Source: Alloalcanivorax xenomutans (lineage in GTDB: Bacteria > Pseudomonadota > Gammaproteobacteria > Pseudomonadales > Alcanivoracaceae). From it: a stretch of DNA of 64,000 nt. The stretch spans positions 229,815 through 293,814 of the forward strand of contig NZ_OBMO01000002.1 of assembly GCF_900217905.1 (NCBI RefSeq), read 5' to 3'. A program made the translations under genes and the position numbers. This document shows positions 45,677-47,592 of the stretch, piece by piece (within the stretch, counting starts at the first letter, position 1; every line of letters begins with the position of its first letter). The notes under the pieces are model-generated. The model did no database searches. It saw nothing but the letters and a program-made list of their open reading frames with translations, and was not told the origin of the DNA.

Positions 45677-45790
45677 GCAATACCTCCCAATGGGCTGGCG
45701 TCATGCTGGCGACAGGCGCGTCTCTAAATTTGCCTTTAAAGACAAACACCTGTAGAAATCCCGCCACGCGCCACACGCGTGACGGCGCGC

Positions 45791-45819
45791 ATTATATACT
45801 ACGGGCTCGCCTCCGTCAT
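45791..45819 (-). promoter_or_regulatory. Predicted sigma-70 promoter of the cytochrome c5-c4 unit
   Basis: On the minus strand ATGACG (45819-45814, four of six) and a perfect TATAAT (45796-45791) are 17 bp apart. The start would be near 45784, about 108 bp before the ATG. Confidence 0.6.
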
Positions 45820-45858
45820 ATCCCTTGTTTATGCATGGGTATTTGCGGAGACAGGGCG

Positions 45859-46527
45859 ATGCCCTCCATTGATGCTCGTAACCGGACCGCCATGCCATTG
45901 CATCCCGCTCAACGCCTTTTGCACCAGGCCGCTTTCCTGAAAAGCGCGCAAACCGTCGAACAGTGCCCCCCTGACGAGGGCCTGGAAGTGGCATTCGCCG
46001 GGCGCTCCAACGCCGGCAAGTCCAGTGCCATCAACCGCCTTACCGGCCAGCGCAGTCTTGCTCGCACCTCCAAGACACCGGGCCGGACCCAGTTGCTGAA
46101 CTTTTTCACCCTGGATGAGCAACGCCGGCTGGTGGATCTGCCCGGCTATGGCTACGCCAAGGTGGACAAAGCGGTACGCATGCAATGGCAGGAGCATCTG
46201 GACGACTACCTGGCGCGCCGCGAATGTCTGACCGGCCTGGTGTTGTTGATGGACATTCGCCACCCGCTCCGGGAATTCGACCAGTTGATGCTCGAATGGT
46301 CCGCCCGTTCCGGAATGCCGCTGCTGATCCTGCTGACCAAGGCGGACAAATTAAAGTTCGGCGCCGCCAAAAGCGCCTTGATGCAGGTCACCAAGACCCT
46401 CAAAGATCATCCCGCGCCACTGCGGGTGCAGCTTTTTTCCGCCACCTCCGGGCAGGGCTGTGAGCAAGCCTGGGACCAAATGGCCGAGTGGTTGCGAATC
46501 GAGGACGAAGCCCCTCCCGCGATCTGA
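45859..46527 (+). CDS. engB: Ribosome biogenesis GTPase EngB (YihA/YsxC)
   Basis: The ATG at 45859 follows GGAGACAGGGCG and gives 222 residues. The G motifs are clear: G1 [10 protein letters not shown]2 T in [11 protein letters not shown]3 DLPGYG and G4 TKADK. It is an essential GTPase in large ribosomal subunit assembly. It is divergent from cytochrome c5, and, as in E. coli and Pseudomonas, an sRNA gene converges on its 3' end (46921-47074). The usual partner polA is absent from the window. Confidence 0.96.
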
Positions 46528-46656
46528 CCGGAACTGCCCATTTGTGTCACCCGGCGCCCAATTTTGTCGGTCCCACGATCCCATCAATACCAGACCACTT
46601 CCGGCAGTGAGCGCCAACTCTTTGAATTTTGGCCATTTTTCCCGTTTTCACGAAAC

Positions 46657-46671
46657 TGGCACAGCCCTTGC
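46657..46671 (+). promoter_or_regulatory. Sigma-54 promoter motif downstream of engB
   Basis: TGGCAC-AGCCC-TTGC is a perfect match to the -24/-12 consensus TGGCAC-N5-TTGC, with the invariant GG and GC at correct spacing. A start near 46683 is predicted. The DNA downstream has no gene on this strand, so any transcript would be non-coding. No enhancer-binding site is identified. Confidence 0.5.
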
Positions 46672-46682
46672 TCCGTATCGGG

Positions 46683-46867
46683 TGCAATACCGGCCCAGAC
46701 CGAGGCATCGAAACGGGCACCGCCAAAACATCGCTGGGGGGCGATTCATGGTGGGGCCCAGGCCACGGTCGAGAGGAAGGGTGTGACCGCCGGAGACGGG
46801 GGTCATAAAAGAAGGGGGGATGCCCGGGGCCTGATCTTCGGGTAAAAAATCGCCGGGAGCGATTTTT
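46683..46867 (+). ncRNA. Candidate short transcript from the sigma-54 promoter
   Basis: If the sigma-54 motif works, the transcript would run through GACCGCC/GGGGGTC and end at the hairpin AAAAATCGC-CGGGA-GCGATTTTT (46845-46867), whose second arm is T-rich like a terminator. The length would be about 185 bases. Only the promoter and terminator motifs support it, and the latter part belongs to a dispersed repeat. Confidence 0.22.
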
Positions 46868-46920
46868 GACGTTGCGCCAGCAACGGCCCGGCAGGGTGAC
46901 CGCCATGGAAGGCAGGTTAC
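46780..46920. repeat. CCGCCATGG-family repeat array with covarying hairpin
   Basis: The array has GTGACCGCCGGAGACGGGGGTCATAAAA, the hairpin AAAATCGC-CGGGA-GCGATTTT (46846-46866), then GACGTTGC and CGGCCCGGCAGGGTGACCGCC near 46889. The same elements stand in the same order at 44564-44683. The hairpin stem differs from that copy by a compensated pair (C-G for T-A). Confidence 0.7.
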
Positions 46921-47074
46921 AAAAAAAATCCCTGGCAGCAATTGGGGGGGAAGGGAACGACTTCGCTGCCAGGGAGGCTTGCCGCCCCGGCCTCCTGGGG
47001 AAGAGGCCGGGGTGTCCAGAAGCTACGAACCGGCGAGGGTACTGGGGGATCGGGGGTTACCAGTCCGTAGCTGT
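46921..47074 (-). ncRNA. sRNA in the Spot 42/ErsA position, sigma-E/AlgU-type promoter
   Basis: The predicted transcript is about 150 bases. It folds into SL1 (AGCTACG with CGTAGCT, 47072-47021, enclosing a C-rich loop), SL2 (CCCCGGCCTC with GAGGCCGGGG, 47012-46985) and a terminator hairpin (TCCCTGGCAGC with GCTGCCAGGGA, 46975-46929) followed by eight T. Its start falls at the base of SL1, just after a sigma-E-type promoter. It converges on the 3' end of engB, as Spot 42 does in E. coli and as ErsA lies next to engB in Pseudomonas; ErsA is also sigma-22 dependent and about 130 nt. Homology by sequence was not tested. Confidence 0.75.
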
Positions 47075-47078
47075 AAAT

Positions 47079-47106
47079 TAAGACAGCTCCACCTCAACGA
47101 AAGTTC
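47079..47106 (-). promoter_or_regulatory. Sigma-E/AlgU-type promoter of the sRNA
   Basis: On the minus strand GAACTT (47106-47101) and TCTTA (47083-47079) are 17 bp apart. The AlgU/RpoE consensus is GAACTT-N16/17-TCtgA. The predicted start near 47074 coincides with the beginning of the first stem-loop. Confidence 0.65.
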
Positions 47107-47218
47107 CTGCCGGTTCCATCTTTTACAAATTTCATGATGGGGATCACAGGCTGGCCCGAGGGCTCCCGCACGAAGGCCACTGTGTCCCCTTTTTTTTGGA
47201 AACGTAAATTCGGAGGCC

Positions 47219-47236
47219 GCTACGGCGCCGCTGTAG
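47219..47236. repeat. Short repeat GCTACGGCGCCGCTGTAG
   Basis: The 18-bp sequence is identical at 63899-63916. It lies just beyond the end of the Mrp operon and belongs to the REP-like family with the AGCGGC/GCCGCT pairing. Confidence 0.6.
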
Positions 47237-47259
47237 GAGCAATACCTTAGAGGGCCCGC

Positions 47260-47592
47260 CTACTGCTTCCAGGGCTTGCCGCGGGTGTCCTCGCGGTACT
47301 TGAGCTCCCTGTGCATGGCCGCCTTGGCCAGCATGTGCGCCGACACCGGCGCCGAAATAAACAGAAACAGAGTGATCAGAATCTCGTGGAGATGCAGGGC
47401 ATGCTCGGTCCAGGAGAAGTACACCAGCGACGCCATGATGGTACCGCCCACGCCCAGCGTGGTGGCCTTGGTCGGGCCATGCAGGCGCAGGAAGAAATCC
47501 GGCAACCGTACCAGCCCCAGAGAGCCGATCAGCGCGAACACCCCGCCAATCAGCAGGAAAATCGCGGTGATGTATTCGATTACGATGTCCAT
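47260..47592 (-). CDS. mrpG: Mrp antiporter subunit G
   Basis: The 110-residue protein has three membrane helices and the MrpG/MnhG landmarks IGSLGLVRLPDFFLRLHGPTKATTLG (about residues 22-47). It is the last subunit of the Mrp complex, a proton-coupled sodium antiporter related to complex I. It follows mrpF by 17 bp. Confidence 0.94.
   Translation of the reverse strand: MDIVIEYITAIFLLIGGVFALIGSLGLVRLPDFFLRLHGPTKATTLGVGGTIMASLVYFSWTEHALHLHEILITLFLFISAPVSAHMLAKAAMHRELKYREDTRGKPWKQ

Follow-up and report, generated by a model that had tools for sequence, protein, structure and literature searches.

It is rather probable that the minus strand beside engB in Alloalcanivorax xenomutans carries the gene of a conserved small RNA (sRNA) that is likely transcribed by sigma-E, has a predicted role in antisense regulation, exerted by its C-rich loops, and sits in the place of the Pseudomonas sRNA ErsA without having the ErsA pairing domain. 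Coordinates refer to the window, that is, the entire stretch of 64,000 nucleotides that was analysed. On its minus strand, GGAACTT (47107-47101) is followed after 17 nt by TCTTA (47083-47079), then by three hairpins and a T8 tract. The first-pass annotation had proposed a unit of about 150 nt made of GAACTT-N17-TCTTA, three stem-loops and eight T, and every one of these elements is found where it had been placed, the transcript measuring about 152 nt if counted from its inferred 5' end through the last T of the T8 tract (46921..47072, minus strand). As had also been proposed, the gene is convergent with engB (yihA; 45703..46527, plus strand), an open reading frame whose true start codon may be further downstream.

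The 5' end would lie at 47072. We derive this position from the name of a published transcript, sRNA4758272, assuming that the number 4758272 marks the 5' end; in the corresponding copy of genome G006 that number falls on the A of AGCUACGG. Hairpin 1 begins with this base, which lies six nt past the -10 box. Folding and covariation define hairpin 1 (47021..47072; 13-14 pairs, with a C-rich loop at 47059-47034), hairpin 2 (46985..47012), whose loop is also C-rich, and hairpin 3 (46975-46929, loop GUCGUUCCCUUCCCCCCC), which together with the T8 tract (46928-46921) forms an intrinsic terminator (46921..46975), all on the minus strand. Runs of C are present in the loops of all three hairpins. The folding energy of the RNA is -70.6 kcal/mol (z = -5.8), and none of 200 shuffled sequences folds equally well. 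A covariance model built on 36 copies of the sRNA (R1) matches the window at 47076-46921 on the minus strand with 175.6 bits, compared with 15.5 bits on the plus strand.

Conservation of the hairpins and promoter in related genomes had been named as a test of the proposal, and the sRNA turned out to be a constant feature of its family. Searched at the DNA level, it is present in 32 of 57 genomes, each of them a member of Alcanivoracaceae (32/36) and none of another family (0/21); R1 detected it in the remaining four family genomes with 54 to 92 bits, which brings the family to 36/36. An order-wide R1 scan, run under stricter filters at which weak matches are lost, gave a match in 24 of 390 genomes, namely all 18 family members and six others. 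In the model-fitted alignment, which is biased towards the structure and takes in seven rows from outside the family and three partial rows, 97% of the pair cells are standard and 29 of the 33 pairs have changes on both sides, a result reached by none of 500 shuffles. The unfitted, family-only alignment has such changes in 21 of 33 pairs. They are distributed over hairpin 1 (11 of 13 pairs), hairpin 2 (all eight modelled pairs) and hairpin 3 (10 of 12). The mean identity of the loop exceeds that of the arms both in hairpin 1 (92% against 82% and 84%) and in hairpin 2 (86% against 72% and 76%), and because these two loops are more conserved than their arms, the C-rich loops are constrained as sequence. 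In hairpin 3 the relation is the opposite, with arms at 94 and 95% and the loop at 88%.

A transcript from the matching locus of another species has been published. In Alcanivorax dieselolei B-5, Wei et al. (2022, PMC9788540) detected an intergenic sRNA, sRNA4758272, flanked by the genes of a ribosome-biogenesis GTP-binding protein (B5T_04289) and of antiporter subunit G (B5T_04290); the sRNAs they list needed reads in both dRNA-seq and ssRNA-seq. The copy in G006, which we infer to be B-5 from the coordinate and the neighbours, lies at 4758276-4758121 (minus strand) between engB and mnhG and is 97% identical to that of the window. Position, coordinate and identity thus make sRNA4758272 the same RNA as ours, and the matching B-5 locus is transcribed. 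The same report describes it as highly conserved and present in two copies in some species, so that the transcript, its conservation and its duplication in some species were known before (PMC9788540). By the looser BLASTN used there, 27 of 34 intergenic sRNAs are Alcanivorax-specific, and the more widely distributed ones named there do not include sRNA4758272. As far as the text consulted shows, it figures as an unnamed Alcanivorax sRNA and is tied neither to ErsA, nor to sigma-E, nor to polA synteny; the main text makes no mention of ErsA. In our literature searches the name sRNA4758272 occurs in PMC9788540 only, and as far as the papers listed by these searches show, the new element is a duplicated RNA in the ErsA slot with a different recognition part. 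Envelope stress would thereby become the likely input of an sRNA of an alkane degrader, whose relation to ErsA can be put to the test.

The sigma-E-like promoter (47079..47107, minus strand) is present by sequence, as first noted, and its pattern is kept throughout the family. Counting 44 copies, with two copies cut by contig ends excluded, an upstream region scores as sigma-E-like in 43, at a fixed distance to hairpin 1; the same holds for five of 2200 shuffled upstream regions and for none of the 44 reverse complements. The -35 element is an exact GGAACTT in 28 copies, GAAACTT in nine and another form in six, followed by 15-17 nt and then TC. The sole exception is the proximal copy at locus L021 (1085-1236, minus strand), which has no recognisable sigma-E promoter and looks like a decaying paralogue. 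Farther upstream in the window lies an element, ATTTGTAAAAGATG (47117..47130, minus strand), of which TGTAAAA is kept in relatives: it stands 13-14 nt 5' of the -35 box in the 13 single copies of the window's genus (g1) and in five distal copies of genus g8, and anywhere upstream in 24 of the 44 copies. The window's genome encodes an RpoE-family sigma factor scoring above the NCBI cut-off. In a loose scan, the region upstream of its rpoE gene gave no clear sigma-E promoter, and genome-wide the strict sigma-E pattern is not enriched (four sites versus five for the reversed pattern). On this sequence evidence, sigma-E control of the sRNA is likely.

An alternative source would be the mnh antiporter mRNA, from whose 3' end most of the RNA might be released by cleavage instead of arising from a promoter of its own. 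The last gene of the Na+/H+ antiporter operon (47260..47592, minus strand), assigned from its open reading frame and synteny, lies upstream on the sRNA strand; its name, mnhG, follows common usage and the annotation quoted in PMC9788540. It ends at 47260, there is no T-run on this strand between it and the sRNA promoter, and 36.6% of the listed sRNAs of B-5 have processed 5' ends (PMC9788540). However, the promoter is kept in 43 of the 44 copies, including those of genus g3, where polA and not mnhG stands upstream, and the inferred 5' end falls at the distance from the -10 box given above. We regard such processing as a very improbable main source of the RNA and retain transcription from its own promoter as the working model.

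The first-pass annotation had further suggested that polA is missing from this neighbourhood and that the sRNA stayed with engB while the other flank changed, and the comparison of loci corroborates this. Relatives of engB occur in 102 of 105 genomes of the order, the closest named one (98%) being that of Alloalcanivorax balearicus. In genus g3, polA occupies the other flank of the sRNA at all seven loci (L018-L022, L024, L026), giving the order polA-sRNA-engB. In the window's genus, mnhG or mnhFG stands in the place of polA at all 13 loci, and polA of the window's genome is on a separate contig (G000:C33). The mnhFG genes also take that place at the g8 loci and at two g5 loci (L044, L045), and at the g2 loci and L028 neither polA nor mnhFG was found within the stretch of sequence examined. 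Between engB and the sRNA, an inverted repeat, AAAAATCGC-CGGGA-GCGATTTTT (46844-46868), can fold on either strand, the surrounding 46 nt giving -11 and -12 kcal/mol; it is possible that it serves as a two-way terminator separating the convergent transcripts.

The first-pass annotation had compared the position with that of Spot 42, which in E. coli points at the 3' end of engB. The 12 Rfam matches up to E = 10 in 46528-47260 do not include Spot 42 (RF00021), which speaks against membership in that family; what the RNA of the window shares with Spot 42 of E. coli and Vibrionaceae is the place beside engB. To our knowledge, Spot 42 is not a sigma-E RNA. Its gene, spf, lies between polA and yihA/engB and is repressed by CRP-cAMP, and in A. 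salmonicida a second sRNA (VSsrna24) lies in the same polA-yihA interval (PMC3295665). The best sub-threshold Rfam match of the window copy is anti-hemB of Burkholderia (RF02837; 22.8 bits, E 0.006, cut-off 49.5). The likeness consists in GC-rich hairpins and a terminator, whereas the middle hairpin of the model is not formed, and the match is likely a chance resemblance. Spot 42, anti-hemB, Scr1601 and the other weak Rfam matches were rejected as lying far under their cut-offs.

The relation to ErsA is closer and at the same time partial. In Pseudomonas, ersA occupies the polA-engB interval (PMC8575079), and the position suggested for our sRNA, beside and convergent with engB, is indeed that of ErsA, with polA on the other flank in the g3 relatives. 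Both RNAs share the polA-engB locus (in those relatives), the strand, a promoter of the sigma-E/AlgU type, a C-rich hairpin 2 and a C-rich terminator loop. In contrast to ErsA, the family RNA does not have the CTCCT-TGTTNAGTGTTG core, its hairpin 1 is enlarged and bears a C-rich loop, the window has no adjacent polA, and tandem copies are found in a part of the family. The core belongs to the region with which ErsA is reported to recognise its targets: nucleotides 31-54 pair with anr (PMC8575079), and nucleotides 41-52 and 26-56 with amrZ (PMC5819304). Searched as an exact pattern (CTCCT-N0-12-TGTTNAGTGTTG), the core occurs in 29 of 390 genomes of the order and in none of the 18 family genomes scanned. 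Two of the matches (G196, G325) are probably due to chance, having no terminator nearby and being on a contig other than that of engB. ErsA-type RNAs with the known unpaired pairing domain are found in four families of the order (f21, f2, f8, f35); in the Alcanivoracaceae RNA, a hairpin with a C-rich loop occupies the place of this unpaired core.

Covariance searches divide the RNA into two halves. The Rfam ErsA model (RF01719, Pseudomon-1) gives a match in 11 of 145 genomes of the order, four of them above the cut-off of 50 bits. On the window copy it scores 17.6 bits, below the cut-off, and this score, together with the missing core, speaks against counting the RNA as a member of the ErsA family. 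The same model, although blind to position, picks out the engB-proximal copy of G013 with 37.6 bits (E 1.2e-5 for that genome), the best score of the family, and the copy at L030 with 33.1 bits, both under the cut-off. A wider ErsA model (R2), made from 29 transcripts carrying the ErsA core and run over 183 kb, finds 10 places in nine family loci at E < 0.05, the best with 28.2 bits (2e-5) and the weakest with 14.8 bits (0.047). Each of these 10 begins at model position 64: the agreement covers hairpin 2 and the terminator and leaves out hairpin 1 and the unpaired domain II, and across the 34 loci R2 positions 1-62 have no match in any family copy. On the window copy R2 gives 5.8 bits, which is not significant, and the link of this copy to ErsA passes through its relatives only. 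In the reverse direction, R1 responds weakly at ErsA loci (L038, 25.9 bits; L033, 19.5; L036, 16.8).

These results could also be read to mean that the slot beside engB was taken independently by an sRNA without kinship to ErsA, which acquired C-rich loops and a sigma-E promoter by convergence, being an analogue of ErsA in position only. The absence of the core from the whole set of family genomes scanned and the failure of both ErsA models on the window copy fit this explanation, as does the presence of yet another RNA in the slot of Marinobacter. On the other hand, R2 and the Rfam model match the 3' half of family copies precisely at the places of the sRNA, the place and the type of promoter are shared, and the polA flank is retained in g3. 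We therefore consider an independent newcomer unlikely, if conceivable, and favour partial descent: hairpin 2 and the terminator probably derive from an ErsA-like ancestor in the polA-engB interval, and the 5' half, now a hairpin whose long loop is C-rich, has probably either been replaced or diverged past recognition. The targets of the sRNA would most likely be other than those of ErsA.

The locus has also been subject to tandem duplication. Two copies of the sRNA, about 410-550 nt apart, are found in at least 10 of the 36 family genomes, a count in which G019 and G029 remain undecided as they end in contig breaks. In g8 the proximal copies group in one clade and the distal copies in another (99/95 each). 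The tree of copies, in which eight of 37 inner branches are well supported and the bootstrap is not settled, gives no answer on whether there was a single family-wide duplication. The 13 g1 genomes have a single copy, which is of the distal type according to the TGTAAAA element and the mnhG neighbour. When the window was searched for a second copy with R1 at full sensitivity, the best match was 46840-46707 on the minus strand, with 2.1 bits and E 0.34, and we do not claim one. This segment is C-rich and includes a small ATCGC-CCCCCA-GCGAT hairpin at the place where relatives have the proximal copy; possibly it is a decayed copy of the sRNA. In another family, f8, ErsA-type RNAs are themselves tandem in four genomes (G253, G234, G193, G214), the pairs at loci L079, L085, L086 and L087 being about 190-210 nt apart. 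A further variant is seen at L028 (1496-1687), where an additional hairpin, with UCUUCCCCC as its loop, is inserted in the family copy and resembles an internal duplication of hairpin 2.

As to function, the mechanism we propose is modelled on ErsA, which represses oprD translation in an Hfq-dependent manner (PMC7264166). The minus-strand GGAACTT-N17-TCTTA promoter would drive the three-hairpin RNA up to its T8 terminator end, and the RNA would accumulate upon envelope stress. Hfq, which in B-5 is reported to be about 1.8-fold up on alkane (PMC9788540), may hold it at the U-tail. The exposed CCCC/UUCCCC loops could then pair with target mRNAs where their ribosome-binding region is rich in G, for the most part reducing translation, and the chief targets might be envelope or transport mRNAs under envelope stress.

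The first-pass annotation took the C-rich loops as likely target-pairing sites: the loops are conserved, but a search of six genomes for 16-base loop complements, with up to two mismatches, yielded no convincing target. The complement of loop 1 has 29 sites in the six genomes, of which seven are in sRNA genes, leaving 22, while the reversed pattern has 17; the genome of the window accounts for nine sites versus two. For loop 3 there are 19 sites, eight of them in sRNA genes, leaving 11 versus 20. A possible start codon within -30 to +60 is present at four of the 33 remaining sites, each of which is also inside a longer frame on one strand. Since no convincing long target site for these loop 1 and loop 3 complements was found in the six genomes, the seeds would be short.

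The same outcome could be expected if the C-rich loops did not silence mRNAs and were instead a decoy titrating an RNA-binding protein, or a sponge of G-rich RNAs. The C-runs in every loop and the extra hairpin at L028 are also in line with such a role. However, the loop of hairpin 1 is conserved as one specific sequence of about 22 nt, which is beyond the need of a short repeated motif, and no C-binding protein that would fit is known to us from these bacteria. A decoy or sponge therefore seems improbable to us, and antisense pairing through the loops remains the preferred function.

Considering the order as a whole, it is tempting to speculate that the side of engB is a slot for sigma-E sRNAs in which the promoter, hairpin 2 and the terminator are kept, the 5' recognition module is exchanged between families and whole genes are duplicated in tandem, and that the Alcanivoracaceae RNA is a case of modular re-targeting of ErsA. 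We put this forward tentatively, as a proposal that may well prove right or wrong, with the balance tipped slightly to the latter. Among 116 engB-downstream stretches, a sigma-E-like promoter is found on the convergent strand in 59 and on the other strand in 11, the shuffle mean being 5.6. The excess is weak in the least biased set of 40 loci, with the promoter convergent in 10 and codirectional in four (by the strict pattern, five versus one). It is strong only in a set that consists largely of Alcanivorax and Marinobacter, its members not being independent, with 44 of 76 convergent versus seven (strict, 33 versus two). If the proposal is true, the stress promoter would have stayed the same while an exchange of the seed module switched the regulon. 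How bacterial sRNAs can acquire new targets under a constant stress input could be studied at this locus by direct comparison, given the same place, the same promoter type, a similar 3' half, a different recognition part and tandem copies at different stages.

Other RNAs were observed around engB in the order. At Marinobacter loci (L185, L191, L198, L200 and others), the stretch downstream of engB holds another RNA, likewise conserved and convergent with engB, whose promoter has GGAACTT and whose core is GCAAACCCTGACGTTT. In families f16, f30 and f39, weak matches of both R1 and R2 are found near engB, at loci that had been preselected for this position. In the genome-wide R1 scan, one of the six outside matches (G322) is on a contig other than that of engB, and the other five, all in f39, lie 1.3-2.3 kb from engB on its own strand. 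Correspondingly, the f39 loci L064-L067 and L069 have, downstream of engB at that distance and on that strand, an RNA with UUCCCCC loops, which may be an inverted relative or another RNA.
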